Shown here piece by piece: positions 19,764 through 42,822 of a stretch of DNA of 64,000 nt. The notes beneath the pieces are model-generated. The model did not search any database, was not told the origin of the DNA, and saw nothing but the letters and a program-made list of their open reading frames with translations. The translations under genes and the position numbers were made by a program. Source of the DNA: Nocardioides marmoriginsengisoli (lineage in GTDB: Bacteria; Actinomycetota; Actinomycetes; Propionibacteriales; Nocardioidaceae); the NCBI RefSeq assembly GCF_003725695.1, contig NZ_RJSE01000002.1, forward strand, positions 1 through 64,000, read 5' to 3'. Each line of letters starts with the position of its first letter. Within the stretch, counting starts at the first letter, position 1.

Positions 19764-22231
19764 GACGCGCCGTACCGTTCCCGGGTCCGCAACCGCGAAC
19801 GCACCTCGTCCCCGGCGTCGACCAGGACCCGGCGGATGCTCAGGTTGAGCTCCGGATCGCCGATCAGCTGCTCGGTCCCGGCGAGCAGGTCCGGCCCGGC
19901 CATCGTGATCGGGTAGAAGAACAACGCCCCGTCGGCCAGGCCCCAGCCCGATCGTACCGCCGTGGTGCCCTTAACCTCGGCGAGGTAGCGGTCGACGTAC
20001 GGCATCAGCAGCTCGTCCTGGCCGCTCGCCCAGAAGCCGGTCCCGATGGCCTCGATCTCGTAGTTCGACGCGGCCGCCTCGCCGGTGAAGCGCTGCCAGG
20101 CCCAGGCCTTCGCGTCCGGATCGGGCAATCGGGCGTGCGACCAGGCGTGCGCGATCTGCGTCTTGGCGTCGTTCTCGCGCGCCAGCTCGCGATCCAGCTC
20201 GTCCAGGTCGGTCGCTCCCAGGGAGGCGAGCCGCTTGAGGACCCGCCAGCGCATCCCGGCGTCGACCTCGAGGCCGGGCGTCTCGGTGCCGGCGAGCAGG
20301 GCCCGCAACCAGTCCGTGGACGTCGCCGTCCCGGTGGCGGCCTGGTAGGCGGCCAGTTGGAGGTCGGAGCCGGCCGGTGCCGTGGCGGCGCGCGCGAGGA
20401 AGGTCTGGTGCACGTCGGCGCGGGAGCGTTCCGGATCGCGCACCGTGGCGAGCAGCTTCTCGTGGACGACGCCACGGGCCCCTTCGCCGTCGTCGCCGAC
20501 CCAGACGCCGAGCGTGCCGACGGCCGCGTCCTGGTCCTCGGCCGGGACACCTGCGCAGATCATCGCGACCGCCGCGTCGGGGTCCAGTCGCGCGTGGTGG
20601 ACGCCGTTGCGCAGGGTGATCCAGGTCGTGGCGCGCAGCAGCGGGTCGGTCATCGTGGGCAGCAGGCCGGGCAATGCCGCCGCGGTGACCGGGTCGATCG
20701 TCAGATCGGCCCAGGCGGTGTCGTCGGGGTCGAGGATCACCGGAGTTCCCGGGGCGACCACGTACGGCGTCCGCTCGGTCTCGACCCGGACCTCGCCGCG
20801 CTCCCAGGCGGTGCCGTTCCAGGCAGCGACCCCGAGCACGTGGGTCCGGTCCGCGGGGTCGGCCGGGGGAGTGCGGACCACGGCGCCGGCCTGCCGGTCG
20901 AGCTCGATCCGATCGAGCCCGGCCTTGCGCAACCAGGCGGCCGTCCACGGCTCGAGGTCGCCGGCGCCTGCCGCCTCCCAGGAGCCGAACAGGTCGCGCA
21001 TGGTGGCGTTCCCGAACCGGTGCCGGGTGAAGTGGTCGCGGACGCCCCCGAGGAAGACGTCGTCACCGACTTGGTGAGCGAGCTGGGTCAGGACCGCATG
21101 GCCCTTGGAGTACGAGATGCCGTCGAAGTCCTGGAGCGCCGCGTCGGCGTCCAGGGCTCCGTTGCCCGCCACCGGGTGGGTGGACGGGCGCGAGTCCGCC
21201 GTCAGGCCCCAGTTCTTCCGGGCGACCGCGGCCCAGACGAGGGCGTCGTCGAACTCGGTGACCTCGGCCGTGACCCGGTTGCCCATGTACTCGGCGAAGG
21301 CCTCGTTGAGCCAGAGGTCGTCCCACCACTTCGGGGTCACCAGGTTGCCGAACCACTGATGCGCCATCTCGTGCGCGACGGTGGTAGCGCGCTGGATCCG
21401 CATGCTCCGCGGGACCCTGGTCGAGAAGAGCAACGGGTCCCGGAACGTCACGCAGCCCGGGTTCTCCATCGCGCCGGCGTTGAACTCCGGCACGAAGGCC
21501 TGGTCGTACTTGCCGAAGGCGTACCGGATGCCGAAGAGCCGGTGGAACTCGTCGAAGCACTGGCGGGTGAGGGTGAGCAGCTCCTCGGCGTCCTTCTCCA
21601 GGGCCGGCGCGAGCGACCGACGCGCCAGCAACCCCAGGTCGATGCCGTCGTGGTGGTCGGCGATCCGGTGGTAGGGACCGGCGACCAGGCTGACGAAGTA
21701 CGTCGACAGCGGCTGGCTCTGCTCGAACTCCCAGCGGCCGCGGTCGACCTCGGTGCCGGCTGCGTTCGCGACCACGATCCAGTCGTCCGGAGCAGCGACC
21801 CGCAGCGTGTACGGCGCCTTGAGGTCGGGCTGGTCGAAGCACGCGAACACCGACGGAGCGGCGCTCATGAAGCTCATCTGGTAGACGTACGGGCGTCCGT
21901 CGGCAGGATCAACCGCCCGGTGCAGGCCCTCGCCGTCGTTGCGGAACGGCATCGCGGACTCGACCACGATCCGGTGCTCGCCCGCGGGGAGAGTCAGCGG
22001 GTAGCGGCCGTCGTCGAGGGCGTCGACCGGGAGGTCGGTGCCGTCGAGCTCGATGCGCCCCAGGGCCACCGGCTTCAGGTCGAGGAAGGTGTCCCCGCCC
22101 TTCGAGGTCACCTCGATCACGGTGGTGCTGGCGAAGGTGGTCTCCTCGCGCAGGTCGAGCGTGACGTCGTACGACGTGATCTCGAGCAGGTCGAAACGGT
22201 CCCGGGCCTCGTTCAGCTGCAGACTGCGCAC
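19760..22231 (-). CDS. pepN: Aminopeptidase N (M1 zinc metallopeptidase)
   Basis: 823 aa. Substrate-binding GAMENPG and zinc site HEMAHQWFGNLVTPKWWDD with the third ligand in NEAFAEY are intact. The N-terminal beta domain (LDLREETTFASTTVIEV) precedes the thermolysin-like core and an ERAP1-like C-terminal domain. The GTG start is set by the -10 element TAGTGT ending 7 nt upstream; the in-frame extension beyond it is antisense to osmC. Followed in operon by fdhD. Confidence 0.95.
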   Translation of the reverse strand: MRSLQLNEARDRFDLLEITSYDVTLDLREETTFASTTVIEVTSKGGDTFLDLKPVALGRIELDGTDLPVDALDDGRYPLTLPAGEHRIVVESAMPFRNDGEGLHRAVDPADGRPYVYQMSFMSAAPSVFACFDQPDLKAPYTLRVAAPDDWIVVANAAGTEVDRGRWEFEQSQPLSTYFVSLVAGPYHRIADHHDGIDLGLLARRSLAPALEKDAEELLTLTRQCFDEFHRLFGIRYAFGKYDQAFVPEFNAGAMENPGCVTFRDPLLFSTRVPRSMRIQRATTVAHEMAHQWFGNLVTPKWWDDLWLNEAFAEYMGNRVTAEVTEFDDALVWAAVARKNWGLTADSRPSTHPVAGNGALDADAALQDFDGISYSKGHAVLTQLAHQVGDDVFLGGVRDHFTRHRFGNATMRDLFGSWEAAGAGDLEPWTAAWLRKAGLDRIELDRQAGAVVRTPPADPADRTHVLGVAAWNGTAWERGEVRVETERTPYVVAPGTPVILDPDDTAWADLTIDPVTAAALPGLLPTMTDPLLRATTWITLRNGVHHARLDPDAAVAMICAGVPAEDQDAAVGTLGVWVGDDGEGARGVVHEKLLATVRDPERSRADVHQTFLARAATAPAGSDLQLAAYQAATGTATSTDWLRALLAGTETPGLEVDAGMRWRVLKRLASLGATDLDELDRELARENDAKTQIAHAWSHARLPDPDAKAWAWQRFTGEAAASNYEIEAIGTGFWASGQDELLMPYVDRYLAEVKGTTAVRSGWGLADGALFFYPITMAGPDLLAGTEQLIGDPELNLSIRRVLVDAGDEVRSRLRTRERYGAS

Positions 22232-22238
22232 ACCACAC

Positions 22239-22248
22239 ACACTAAGGT
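22239..22248. promoter_or_regulatory. Overlapping bidirectional leaderless promoter, pepN / osmC
   Basis: The 24-bp gap between the two divergent genes holds TAAGGT (22243-22248, plus) and TAGTGT (22239-22244, minus), which share the base pairs 22243-22244. Each ends exactly 7 nt before its start codon (ATG 22256; GTG 22231). Neither gene has a ribosome site. Confidence 0.65.
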
Positions 22249-22255
22249 CCGAGTC

Positions 22256-22684
22256 ATGACCGCTGAACGTGAGACCCTGCGCTCCATCGACCTCACCCGG
22301 ATCGGTGAGGGCCGCTACAAGGCCACCAACGCCCGGGGCGGCGTGCTCCCGGTGGGGAGCGGCAGCGACCCGGACTTCACGCCGGTGGAGCTGCTCCTGA
22401 CCGCGATCGCCGGCTGCAGCGCCATCGACGTCGACCTGATCACCGGCAAGCGGGCTCAGCCGACGTCGTTCGAGGTCCATGCCGAGGGCGACAAGATCCG
22501 CGACGACCAGGGCAACCGGATGACCAACCTCCGGGTCACCTTCGACCTGGTCTTCCCCGACGGCGAGGGCGGCGACGCGGCCCGGGACGTGCTGCAACGG
22601 GCGATCGAGCAGTCCCGCGACCGGCTCTGCACCGTCAGCCGCACGGTGGCGGTAGCGTCGCCGGTCGAGATGGAGAAGAAGTAG
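22256..22684 (+). CDS. OsmC family peroxiredoxin-like protein
   Basis: 142 aa. The two redox cysteines of the OsmC/Ohr fold are present in 'TAIAGCSAIDVDL' and 'RDRLCTVSRTV'; 'FTPVELLLTA' is typical. Likely a thiol-dependent peroxidase, although the subgroup (YhfA-like) is less characterised than Ohr. Leaderless start. Confidence 0.85.
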   Translation: MTAERETLRSIDLTRIGEGRYKATNARGGVLPVGSGSDPDFTPVELLLTAIAGCSAIDVDLITGKRAQPTSFEVHAEGDKIRDDQGNRMTNLRVTFDLVFPDGEGGDAARDVLQRAIEQSRDRLCTVSRTVAVASPVEMEKK

Positions 22685-39538: not shown

Positions 39539-39943
39539 TCACCGCAGGGAACGGGCTCGGAGGGTGGTCACCCGGGTGATCGTCTCGAAGTCGCCGTCCT
39601 TGTGCAGAAGCTCGACGTCGTGACGTATCGCGACCGCGGCAATGAGGCAGTCGATTATGCTGCGCACGACGTGGCCCTCCGCCCGCGCTGCTCGTTGTAC
39701 GGCGGCAGCGCTGCGGAAGTCGACCACCGGGTCGAGCCGAAGCGACGGAAGTCCGTTGACGAGCTGTTCGACCCGGGCATTCACCTGCGGCGACGTCGTC
39801 CCCGCCAGCAGCTCCATCGCGACTGGCTCGCAGGTGACCACGCTCCCGAGATCCTCGGTGATCAGTCTCCGTACTTCGGTCCGCGCCGGGGTGTCGTTGC
39901 TCCGGAGGTAGTCGACCCAGCAGGACGTGTCGACCAGGATCAT
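39539..39943 (-). CDS. vapC: VapC-type PIN-domain ribonuclease toxin
   Basis: 134 aa. PIN acidic residues: Asp5 (ILVDTSCWVDYLR), Glu near 39-44 (CEPVAMELLAG), Asp98 (SIIDCLIAAVA) and the terminal 'HKDGDFETI'. Degrades RNA when free of antitoxin. ATGA overlap with vapB. Confidence 0.92.
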   Translation of the reverse strand: MILVDTSCWVDYLRSNDTPARTEVRRLITEDLGSVVTCEPVAMELLAGTTSPQVNARVEQLVNGLPSLRLDPVVDFRSAAAVQRAARAEGHVVRSIIDCLIAAVAIRHDVELLHKDGDFETITRVTTLRARSLR

Positions 39944-40152
39944 CAGAAGGTCTCGACCGGCGAGTCGCGCAGGGCGTCTAGGTCGCCGTCCCAGCCGATC
40001 CCCTCCAAACCCAGCACGAAGTCGACCGTCAGCGGCGTTCCCACCAGGCGGCGGAGCGCGAGGTCCACCGCGTCCTTCTTGGTGGTCACGCCGAACCGGC
40101 GCATGACCTCGTTGACGAGGCTCTCGTCAAGATCGATGTTTGTGCGTGCCAT
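39943..40152 (-). CDS. vapB: VapB-type antitoxin
   Basis: 69 aa. N-terminal ribbon-helix-helix-like part [19 protein letters not shown]; '[14 protein letters not shown]' is the type-II vapB signature (DUF2191). Acidic C-terminal tail ([10 protein letters not shown]) for toxin binding. The ATG is chosen because TATTCT ends 6 nt before it; an in-frame GTG upstream overlaps the promoter. Confidence 0.9.
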
Positions 40153-40171: not shown

Positions 40172-40627
40172 CTAGCGAGGTCGCCAGCGCTTCCAGAGCG
40201 CGCTGGCAGCGGCCCGCTCCTTGCCGTCCCACTCGATCCAGACCTCGGCGGTGATCTCGGCCTCCGACGCCGCGGTGACCCGGGCTCCCAGGGTGACGGT
40301 GGCGTCCAACGGCGCCGGTCGGAGGTAGCGCACCTCCAGGCCGGCGGTGACGTACGGCAGCGCAGCCCCCGGCAGCGGCGGCCAGCCGCGGGAGAACGCT
40401 TCGTGGGTCACTGCGGCCGCACTGTGGCAGTCCAGGATGGTGGCGATGATGCCGCCGTTCAGGAAGCCGAGGCCGTTGTCGTGCTCGGGCCACGGCGTGA
40501 ACGATGCCCGGACCAGGCCGTCGTCGGCGACCCGACTGCGCAGCTGGAGGCCCTTCTCGTTGGCGGGCCCGCACCCGAAGCACGGCAGGTTCGGGAAGTA
40601 GGTCTCCTGGAGGCTCGGTGAATCCAT
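40172..40627 (-). CDS. Hotdog-fold thioesterase (PaaI-like)
   Basis: 151 aa. '[23 protein letters not shown]' is the hotdog helix with the G-G-x2-A-T-x2-D pattern; '[18 protein letters not shown]' the core strand. N-terminal CFGCGPAN cysteines may bind metal. Likely acyl-CoA thioesterase; substrate unknown. The ATG lies 7 nt after TAGATT. Confidence 0.88.
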
Positions 40628-40633
40628 GGTCGG

Positions 40634-40640
40634 TAATCTA
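40634..40640. promoter_or_regulatory. Overlapping bidirectional leaderless promoter, thioesterase / LEH
   Basis: TAATCT (40634-40639, plus) and TAGATT (40635-40640, minus) overlap by five base pairs within a 19-bp gap. Each ends exactly 7 nt before its ATG (40647 and 40627). Confidence 0.65.
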
Positions 40641-40646
40641 CGGCCC

Positions 40647-41039
40647 ATGACCGACGCCGCCGTGATCGTGGAATCGTTCCTGACCCTGCTCGAGCACGGT
40701 GAGGCCGAGGCTGCCTGCGAGCTGCTCGCCCCCGACGTCGAGTGGCGCAACACGGGCATGCCGACCTTCCGCGGTCACAAGGTCCGCGGGATGCTCCGCG
40801 ACATGGAGCGGCGCAGCATCGGCTTCCGTGTCGACATGCACCACATCGCCGCCAACGGGCCGATCGTGCTGACCGACCGCATCGACTACCTCTCCTACAA
40901 GCGCTGGGAGTCGGCCTTCTGGGTCTGCGGGACGTTCGAGGTGCGAGACGGCCTGATCACGTTGTGGGACGACCACTTCTCGATGGGCAACCTGCTCGCC
41001 GGGTCGATCCGCGGACTCCTCGGGATGCGACGCGCCTAG
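40647..41039 (+). CDS. Limonene-1,2-epoxide hydrolase-family protein (SnoaL-like)
   Basis: 130 aa cone-shaped fold. The LEH catalytic set is present: Asn in VEWRNTGMP, Arg and Asp in VLTDRIDYL, Asp in LITLWDDHFSM. An epoxide hydrolase function is plausible for a short-chain or terpene epoxide. The stop is in CTAG, shared with the convergent gene. Confidence 0.88.
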   Translation: MTDAAVIVESFLTLLEHGEAEAACELLAPDVEWRNTGMPTFRGHKVRGMLRDMERRSIGFRVDMHHIAANGPIVLTDRIDYLSYKRWESAFWVCGTFEVRDGLITLWDDHFSMGNLLAGSIRGLLGMRRA

Positions 41040-41794
41040 CGCCAGCGCGCCAGCCAGTCCGCCGAGATCTTCGCCAGCGACATCTGCCAGATCGGACCGA
41101 AGCTGATCCGGCCGGCACCGGCCCGGGCGTACATCGCCAGGTCCCCGTCGACCGGGTTCGCGATCGCGTTCACCGGCAACGGCAACGCGTCGCAGATCCG
41201 CTTCAACGTCTCCTCGTCGTGGAAGCCCACCGGGTAGAGCGAATCCGCCCCGGCCTCGGCGCAGGCGATCATCCGGGCGATCGCCAGGTCGACGCGCTCC
41301 GCGTCCTCGCCGAGCTTGTTCTTGAAGGTGTCGGTGCGGGCGTTCAGGACGACGTGCACGCCCGCCGCATCGGCGGCCGCCCGCAGCTCGCCGATCAGAG
41401 CAGCGTGCTCCTCCGACGAGCGCATCCGGCCGCCCTCGCTGTGCACGGTGTCCTCGATGTTCAGACCGACCGCACCGGCGGCGAGCAACCCGTCGATCAG
41501 GGTGCCGGCCGATTCGCCGTACCCGGACTCGATGTCCACCGACACCGGTACGTCGACCGACTCGGTGATTTGCGCGACCCGGGTGGTCAGCTCGGTGAAG
41601 GTCATCCCCTCGCCGTCCGGCCGGCCGATCGAGTCGGCCAGCGGGTGGCTCCCGACGGTCAGCCCGGTGAAGCCGGCGGAGACGGCCACGTTCGCGCTCC
41701 AGGCATCCCATACCGTCGGCAGCACGCCGGGCGTTCCGGGGACGTGCAGCGCGAGCAGCGCCCGGGCCTTGGTCTTGAGATCTGCGTTCGTCAC
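41036..41794 (-). CDS. Isocitrate lyase / PEP mutase superfamily protein
   Basis: 252 aa from the GTG with GAGGAG ahead. TIM-barrel motifs 'PTVWDAWSANVAVSAGFTGL', 'PVSVDIESGYG' (metal site) and 'VGLNIEDTVHSEGGRM'. The lyase cysteine (KKCGH) is replaced: 'NARTDTFKN' region has no Cys, so oxaloacetate-decarboxylase- or phosphonomutase-like activity is more likely than isocitrate lyase. Confidence 0.85.
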   Translation of the reverse strand: MTNADLKTKARALLALHVPGTPGVLPTVWDAWSANVAVSAGFTGLTVGSHPLADSIGRPDGEGMTFTELTTRVAQITESVDVPVSVDIESGYGESAGTLIDGLLAAGAVGLNIEDTVHSEGGRMRSSEEHAALIGELRAAADAAGVHVVLNARTDTFKNKLGEDAERVDLAIARMIACAEAGADSLYPVGFHDEETLKRICDALPLPVNAIANPVDGDLAMYARAGAGRISFGPIWQMSLAKISADWLARWR

Positions 41795-41805: not shown

Positions 41806-42822
41806 TCACGGTTGGAGCAGGACTTTGATCGCGCGCCGCTCGTCCATCGCGCGGTACCCCTCGGCGACGTCCGCCAGGGGCATCACCGAGTCGAACACCA
41901 GGCCGGGGTTGACCGTTCCCGAGGTCACCAGGTCGAGCAGCTCGGGCAGGTAGCGGCGTACCGGAGCCACGCCGCCGGCGAGGCCGACGTTCTTGGCGAA
42001 CATCCGCTCGACCGGCAGCTTCACGCCGTGCGGTACGCCGACGAACCCGACCATCGCGCCCGGTCGCGCCGCCTGGAACGCCATCCGCATCGCGTCGTCG
42101 GTACCCACGCACTCGAGGACCGCGTCGGCACCGACCCCGTCGGTGATCTCCTTGATCCGCTTCGCGCCGTCGGCACCCCGTTCGGCGACGATGTGGGTCG
42201 CGCCGAACGCGCGGGCGATCTCCTGACGCGACTCGTGCCGCGACATCGCGATCACCTTCTCCGCGCCGAGCTGCACCGCCGCCAACACGCCGCACAGGCC
42301 GACGGCACCGTCGCCGACGACCACCGCCGTGTGCCCCTTCCGCACTCCTGCCGACACGGCGCAGTGCCAGCCGGTCGGGAAGACGTCGGAGAGCGTCAGC
42401 AAGGACGGGATCATCGAGGGGTCCGGCATCCCGTCGGTCTTGACCAGGCTTCCGTCGGCCTGGCCGACCAGGCCGTACTCCCCCTGGCCGCCGGTGGTGA
42501 AGCCGCCGTTGACGCACGCCGAGTGTGCGCCGTTGTCGCAGTTCGGACAGGTGTTGTCGCAGGTGCAGAAGGGCACGATCACGAAGTCACCGGGCTTGAA
42601 CGACCGGACCTCGGAACCGACCTCCTCGATCACGCCAACCATCTCGTGGCCGATCGTGGAGCCCGCGGTGATCGGGTTCTCGCCCCGGTACGGCCACAGG
42701 TCCGAGCCGCAGATGCAGCCGGCAGTGATCTTGATGACAGCGTCGGTCGGTGCACCGATGACCGGCACCGGGCGCTCCTCGAGGCGGATGTCCCCGGCGG
42801 CGTGGATGGTGGTGACTCGCAT
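41806..42822 (-). CDS. Zinc-dependent alcohol dehydrogenase with structural zinc lobe
   Basis: 338 aa. Catalytic zinc: CICGSD and GHEMVG; structural zinc: CTCDNTCPNCDNGAHSAC, complete. Rossmann motif GDGAVGLCGV. Group of NAD-dependent alcohol or formaldehyde-type dehydrogenases. Divergent from the XRE-MurA gene; its own -10 is weak (CAGGAT 6 nt before the start). Confidence 0.88.
   Translation of the reverse strand: MRVTTIHAAGDIRLEERPVPVIGAPTDAVIKITAGCICGSDLWPYRGENPITAGSTIGHEMVGVIEEVGSEVRSFKPGDFVIVPFCTCDNTCPNCDNGAHSACVNGGFTTGGQGEYGLVGQADGSLVKTDGMPDPSMIPSLLTLSDVFPTGWHCAVSAGVRKGHTAVVVGDGAVGLCGVLAAVQLGAEKVIAMSRHESRQEIARAFGATHIVAERGADGAKRIKEITDGVGADAVLECVGTDDAMRMAFQAARPGAMVGFVGVPHGVKLPVERMFAKNVGLAGGVAPVRRYLPELLDLVTSGTVNPGLVFDSVMPLADVAEGYRAMDERRAIKVLLQP

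Follow-up and report, generated by a model that had tools for sequence, protein, structure and literature searches.

A gap of only 19 bp separates the divergent start codons of a hotdog thioesterase gene and a limonene epoxide hydrolase (LEH)-type gene in Nocardioides marmoriginsengisoli, and we consider it likely that this gap is one bidirectional promoter, predicted to give two leaderless mRNAs and to have arisen through the loss of a regulator gene. The LEH half of this reading is near certain and the thioesterase half is probable. The site lies in a stretch of 64,000 nucleotides (contig NZ_RJSE01000002.1, positions 1 to 64,000), referred to below as the window. Bidirectional promoters and leaderless genes are each already well described. 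Bidirectional promoters, as reported by Warman, Grainger and co-workers, share a symmetric -10 element whose A and T are reciprocally paired, and their start sites are most commonly 18 bp apart, with separations of 10 and 23 bp also common and small shifts allowed (PMC12825309, PMC10268837). Actinobacterial leaderless promoters are described as carrying TANNNT just upstream of the start codon in genes without an SD sequence (Cortes et al. 2013, PMC3898074; Zheng et al. 2011, PMC3160421). Judged by its sequence, the present site has the features of both kinds.

The plus strand at 40625-40649 reads CATGGTCGGTAATCTACGGCCCATG, in which the left CAT is the reversed thioesterase start and the right ATG is the LEH start. 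The thioesterase ATG occupies 40627-40625 on the minus strand and the LEH ATG 40647-40649 on the plus strand. Between them, TAATCT (+) and TAGATT (-) overlap by 5 bp, and the heptamer TANNNTA can be read as TANNNT on both strands, a shared symmetric -10 with reciprocal A and T of the kind reported for bidirectional promoters (PMC12825309, PMC10268837). The coordinates, the 19-bp gap, the 5-bp overlap and the 7 nt on each side given in the initial annotation all proved exact. A C precedes each ATG and an A is the first base at both starts, in keeping with the preferences that M. tuberculosis start sites are reported to show (PMC3898074). Counted from the ATGs, the predicted start sites are 20 bp apart, where 18, 10 or 23 bp is preferred and small variation is allowed. 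The features are collected in the table.

Table. Coordinates of the features in the window and the basis on which each was assigned.
Feature	Positions	Strand	Basis
Hotdog thioesterase gene, 151 aa, predicted leaderless	40172-40627	-	Pfam 4HBT, 33.6 bits; no SD core in the 25 nt upstream
LEH / SnoaL-like gene, 130 aa, predicted leaderless	40647-41039	+	Pfam LEH, 82.9 bits; no SD core in the 25 nt upstream
19-bp intergenic candidate bidirectional promoter	40628-40646		Sequence
Shared symmetric -10 core TANNNTA (TAATCTA / TAGATTA)	40634-40640		Sequence and family-wide pattern enrichment
LEH -10 hexamer TAATCT, 7 nt to ATG	40634-40639	+	In 15 of 17 relatives, TANNNT precedes an in-frame start by 6-7 nt
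Thioesterase -10 hexamer TAGATT, 7 nt to ATG	40635-40640	-	Sequence; 11 of 12 relatives lack TANNNT at 5-8 nt upstream of the start
Companion site: M1 peptidase (-, GTG) / OsmC (+, ATG), gap 24	22229-22258		Sequence; Pfam

Mirror symmetry scarcely reaches past the heptamer. Given one TANNNT, a mirrored hexamer with a 5-bp overlap needs a single further base, A40640, which composition alone would supply in about 15% of cases (a rough estimate). The symmetry of the -10 by itself is weak evidence; what matters is where the -10 lies with respect to the second ATG.

Gene calling by codon usage, which took in no promoter or ribosome-site information, set both starts at the ATGs at 40627 (-) and 40647 (+), and the Pfam match to LEH (limonene epoxide hydrolase; 4HBT is the thioesterase superfamily) begins at residue 4. 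Because CATG is palindromic, each strand also has an in-frame ATG 21 nt upstream (40626 on the plus strand, 40648 on the minus strand). The longer proteins that these would encode were rejected, as the LEH domain already begins at residue 4 of the shorter form and several relatives share its start. TANNNT 6-7 nt before the start and the lack of an SD sequence are found on the plus side (LEH), where they are also conserved, and on the minus side (thioesterase). A consensus scan of 40500-41150 on both strands gave no match to a two-hexamer sigma-70-type promoter, so that any promoter here would depend on the -10 alone. A -35 element on either side was accordingly set aside; M. tuberculosis promoters likewise are reported to have no conserved -35 (PMC3898074). 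In having TANNNT near the start codon and no SD sequence, the site resembles the leaderless promoters described in actinobacteria (PMC3898074, PMC3160421).

Leaderless initiation is a real signal in this genome. The same codon-usage calling yielded 351 genes in 424 kb (the window and 18 further stretches), and among the 342 usable starts 21 have TANNNT at a spacer of 6 nt and 12 at 7 nt (33/342 together), compared with 22 in all at spacers 8-29 and 1 at spacers 0-5. An SD core accompanies 2 of the 33 starts with TANNNT 6-7 nt away and 135 of 314 other starts. Spacers 6 and 7 are both normal here, 6 being the commoner. Elsewhere in the window, another divergent called pair (54768 on the minus strand, 54845 on the plus strand) has leaderless signals on both sides; its starts are 76 bp apart and its -10 elements are separate.

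The LEH promoter is conserved among relatives. A TANNNT was found 6-7 nt before an in-frame start of LEH orthologues in 15 of 17 relatives, from Nocardioides to Nocardia, the misses being L011 and L067. Nine of these relatives came from the family search and eight from a search of genome contigs; weak family matches (L012-L014), Altererythrobacter/Erythrobacter loci (L071-L074) and duplicates (L061, L062) had been left out beforehand. In-frame ATG, GTG and TTG codons were all admitted as starts within a span beginning about 90 nt upstream of the aligned start and ending 12 nt past it, and the start used was the aligned one in 5 of the 15, lying 42 nt upstream to 3 nt downstream of it in the remainder. 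The symmetric A after the T of the LEH -10, which the mirror needs, is present in 0 of the 15. Of 12 relatives with a thioesterase orthologue, 1 has TANNNT 5-8 nt upstream of its start, in a non-mirror form, so that this promoter is not conserved among them. The lone exception is G053 (L018), whose thioesterase gene carries a TAGGCT of its own, of leaderless type, 6 nt ahead of a GTG.

Such one-sided conservation is also what would be seen if only the LEH promoter were real and TAGATT were a chance by-product of its symmetry, for which one added base suffices. The thioesterase gene would then be served by read-through from the PEP mutase-like gene or by a promoter inside the LEH gene, or would be poorly expressed. 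Read-through is possible and is the main rival: a PEP mutase-like gene (41036-41794) and a zinc dehydrogenase gene (41806-42822) lie beyond LEH, upstream of the thioesterase gene and in its direction, no terminator-like site was found between the PEP mutase-like gene and the thioesterase gene in the scan of 40500-41150, and in relatives the thioesterase start follows closely behind a regulator gene, as in an operon. Exactly 7 nt nevertheless separate the thioesterase start from the mirrored hexamer, and the same gene in G053 has a leaderless-type hexamer of its own; moreover, as the thioesterase gene has no SD sequence, a long read-through message would offer it no obvious ribosome site. We therefore regard the explanation by a lone LEH promoter as unlikely and prefer a promoter read in both directions.

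Comparison of the locus among relatives suggests how such a promoter could have formed. The thioesterase/LEH arrangement was not seen in the 23 other genomes of the genus that were searched. In four relatives (G078, G084, G110 and G053), the two genes are divergent with a response-regulator gene between them, which is receiver-only in the first three and has PAS and receiver domains in G053 (Pfam on one example per form, L016 and L019). Gene order there is thioesterase, regulator, LEH, PEP mutase-like and zinc dehydrogenase, the same as here minus the regulator. No orthologue of the regulator is evident in this genome, the best match elsewhere being 36% identical compared with 67-94% among relatives. 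The most economical reading of these sequences is a deletion that removed the response-regulator gene and left the start codon of the thioesterase 6 bp upstream of the LEH -10. The plus half (LEH) is an old conserved promoter, and the minus half was found only here, where the intervening gene is missing. The full PAS form of the regulator adjoins the thioesterase gene in relatives where no LEH gene was found (L017, L019-L021), which hints at stepwise erosion.

The flank on the thioesterase side also varies. It holds a polyketide-cyclase-like (SRPBCC) gene and then a second dehydrogenase-like gene (assigned by eye) in three of the four relatives, and in G078 the second gene follows directly. 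Here, a PIN-domain gene (39539-39943) and a likely antitoxin gene are inserted downstream of the thioesterase gene, and a relative of the PIN gene occupies the same place in G101 (L019). The antitoxin-like gene, recognized by position and by eye, precedes the PIN-domain gene and starts at 40152 on the minus strand, with TATTCT 6 nt before the start and an SD-like GGAGG farther up. Leaderless toxin-antitoxin genes have been reported in M. tuberculosis (PMC3898074).

The 40625-40649 site had been annotated as the second of two cases of one architecture in the window. The first case is present, but it joins a GTG to an ATG. Its sequence, ACACTAAGGT, gives TAGTGT on the minus strand (22244-22239) and TAAGGT on the plus strand (22243-22248), each 7 nt from its start codon; the hexamers overlap by 2 bp, in the order opposite to that at 40634-40640, and the separation counted from the start codons is 25 bp. 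The window's pair represents two different geometries. Compared with the published 18-bp and 23-bp classes, the predicted separations of 20 bp and 25 bp amount to one extra nucleotide per side (PMC12825309, PMC10268837).

Chance was assessed by counting, in the window and in 200 first-order Markov resamples of it, the sites at which each strand has a start codon with TANNNT at a distance of 6-7 nt, the gap being 12-30. The window holds 2 sites compared with a resampled mean of 0.07 when ATG and GTG are allowed, and 1 compared with 0.005 for ATG only; in each case, 1 of 200 resamples reached the real count. Under the same criteria, the other 360 kb sampled from this genome gave 0 sites, with resampled means of 0.2 (ATG/GTG) and 0 (ATG only). 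Divergent pairs with a gap of at most 40 bp numbered 3 of 46 in the 424-kb sample, two of them from the window. The exact ATG/ATG pattern of the site occurs once in the 4.46-Mb genome. The 18-bp-class ATG/ATG pattern has zero matches genome-wide here at spacings of 6 nt and 8 nt, and the 23-bp class, with 6 nt to each ATG, has 2, one of which (L153) has on one side a frame of just 12 aa. Such an architecture is rare in this genome, and luck partly accounts for the presence of two in one window. Its rarity, with one exact match in this genome and none in the other 360 kb, would suit mere coincidence, that is, two starts flanking an AT-rich heptamer that has no promoter function; given the conserved LEH half, the low resampled mean for the window and the family-wide enrichment, we hold coincidence to be very improbable.

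That enrichment was measured against a control consisting of the same pattern read backwards, uncomplemented, with totals summed from the result tables; as related genomes share sites, the counts are not independent. The 18-bp class with 6-nt spacing occurs at 74 sites in 67 of 195 family genomes (20 in the control). At 7 nt, the spacing of the present site, there are 20 sites in 17 of 197 genomes (control 7), and at 8 nt 4 sites in 4 of 195 (control 6), which is no excess. The 23-bp class at 6 nt gives 91 sites in 69 of 193 genomes, compared with 9 in the control. Together with the placement of TANNNT at spacers 6-7 in this genome, these figures support the initial annotation in combining a leaderless signature with a shared mirror-symmetric -10. 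Its emphasis on a spacing of exactly 7 nt is true of the site, but the family optimum is 6 nt. Its view that the architecture is recurrent and no coincidence is borne out across the family at 6 nt in both classes and, less strongly, at the 7 nt of this site, although the density of two per window was overstated. Counting against the bidirectional reading are the 7-nt spacing on both sides, one over the family optimum, and the symmetric A, which could have arisen by chance. Beyond the family, the 23-bp class gave summed counts of 8 compared with 2 in 11 other genomes of the class, and outside the class 87 compared with 63 in 137 genomes of the phylum, many of the listed matches being AT-rich; the case for its generality across the phylum is weak.

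Twenty of the 74 six-nt sites, picked for variety, were fetched with their loci. In 13, each side opens into a frame of 100 aa or longer, and 2 more are cut by contig ends (L083, L090). Frames of this length on both sides also occur at 9 of the 17 seven-nt sites with loci (of 20). Judged by their N-termini, 10 of the 20 six-nt sites join an AidB-like acyl-CoA dehydrogenase to a BrkB/YihY-like membrane protein, 4 join hemolysin III to a prenyltransferase, 4 are others, and two (L076, L080) have a YihY-like gene facing just a 39-aa frame; for each of the two named pairs, one example was confirmed by Pfam. As a few conserved pairs dominate these picked sites, the enrichment at 6 nt stems partly from those pairs. 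By eye, gene pairs are more varied in the 23-bp class.

The AidB-like // BrkB/YihY-like pair keeps a 17-bp gap with TAC(C/G)GTA across several genera of the family (L075, L079, L085, L087, L089-L094). Within the genus, conservation of the recurrent pairs is mixed. Upstream of the yihY-like gene, a mirror -10 (spacers 3-9 allowed) occurs in 10 of 24 genomes and is absent within 190 bp in 14, including this genome, where the gene has only a one-way TACGGT 7 nt before its ATG. At the uppS-like prenyltransferase gene (L095-L117), TANNNT precedes an in-frame GTG by 6-7 nt in 15 of 23 genomes of the genus, and none of the 23 showed a mirror partner within 75 bp; the signal is one-way here and two-way in some other family genomes.

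A longer palindrome, GGAA..TANNNTA..TTCC, surrounds five of the 7-nt sites (L048, L051, L054, L057, L060). Their neighbours include EamA transporters at L051 and L057 (Pfam) and, by N-terminus, similar genes at L048 and L054, with a MarR gene opposite at L057 and an Rv2466c-like gene at L060. These sites are probably operator and promoter combined. By analogy, the heptamer at 40634-40640 might be a palindromic operator for a regulator, with the promoters elsewhere, but its symmetry barely passes the heptamer and neither adjoining gene is a regulator, so we give this alternative hardly any credence.

Nine genomes carry, at a 23-bp-class mirror promoter, a very short frame (MLxFYS..., 11-13 aa) that looks leaderless and has a conserved start region (L153:1970-2030, L178-L185). 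At L153, it overlaps a 202-aa frame (from 2030; a TetR-type regulator by eye), and the opposite gene encodes an MpaB-type oxygenase. The sequence CTACTCGCGTTC is present twice in both L181 and L182. This region may encode a leader peptide or act as an operator.

In the mechanism that we propose for the thioesterase/LEH gap, RNA polymerase with the main sigma factor would bind the TANNNTA core facing either way. In both hexamers the key A and T would be A40635 and T40639, with T40634 specific to the plus direction and A40640 to the minus direction. Initiation would fall at the A of each ATG and give two leaderless mRNAs, LEH to the right and thioesterase to the left; the start sites and the promoter activity on the thioesterase side are predicted from the sequence. 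One bound polymerase is predicted to exclude the other, so that LEH and thioesterase should be coupled and possibly compete. The ancestral state would have been a one-way leaderless LEH promoter. After deletion of the regulator gene, A40640 would have made the LEH -10 readable backwards.

This proposal differs from the bidirectional promoters described so far in that both products are predicted leaderless mRNAs of real genes, with start codons at the promoter edge and a gap of just 19 bp (PMC12825309, PMC10268837). The passages considered on actinobacterial leaderless promoters concern single starts and mention no shared -10 (PMC3898074, PMC3160421). Cortes et al. do report leaderless transcripts for both prpD and its divergent regulator, and describe divergent promoters in close juxtaposition as common (PMC3898074); the relevant portions of PMC5741613 contain nothing on shared promoters. 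Among mostly top-ranked matches in the open-licence literature, we found no description of bidirectional and leaderless initiation combined on one shared -10.

Whether Nocardioidaceae hold distinct "zero-leader" divergent pairs is, in our judgement, evenly balanced. In such pairs, start codons, start sites and one symmetric -10 would be fused into 17-24 bp; new ones would form through a deletion beside a leaderless promoter and a single base change, and the aidB-like//yihY-like and hemolysin III//uppS-like pairs would keep the arrangement in several genomes or genera. If bidirectional and leaderless initiation are indeed combined on one -10, the overlap of promoter, start site and start codon is so close that a single base can determine whether a gene is expressed, and the thioesterase/LEH locus would offer a before-and-after comparison of a one-way promoter becoming two-way.
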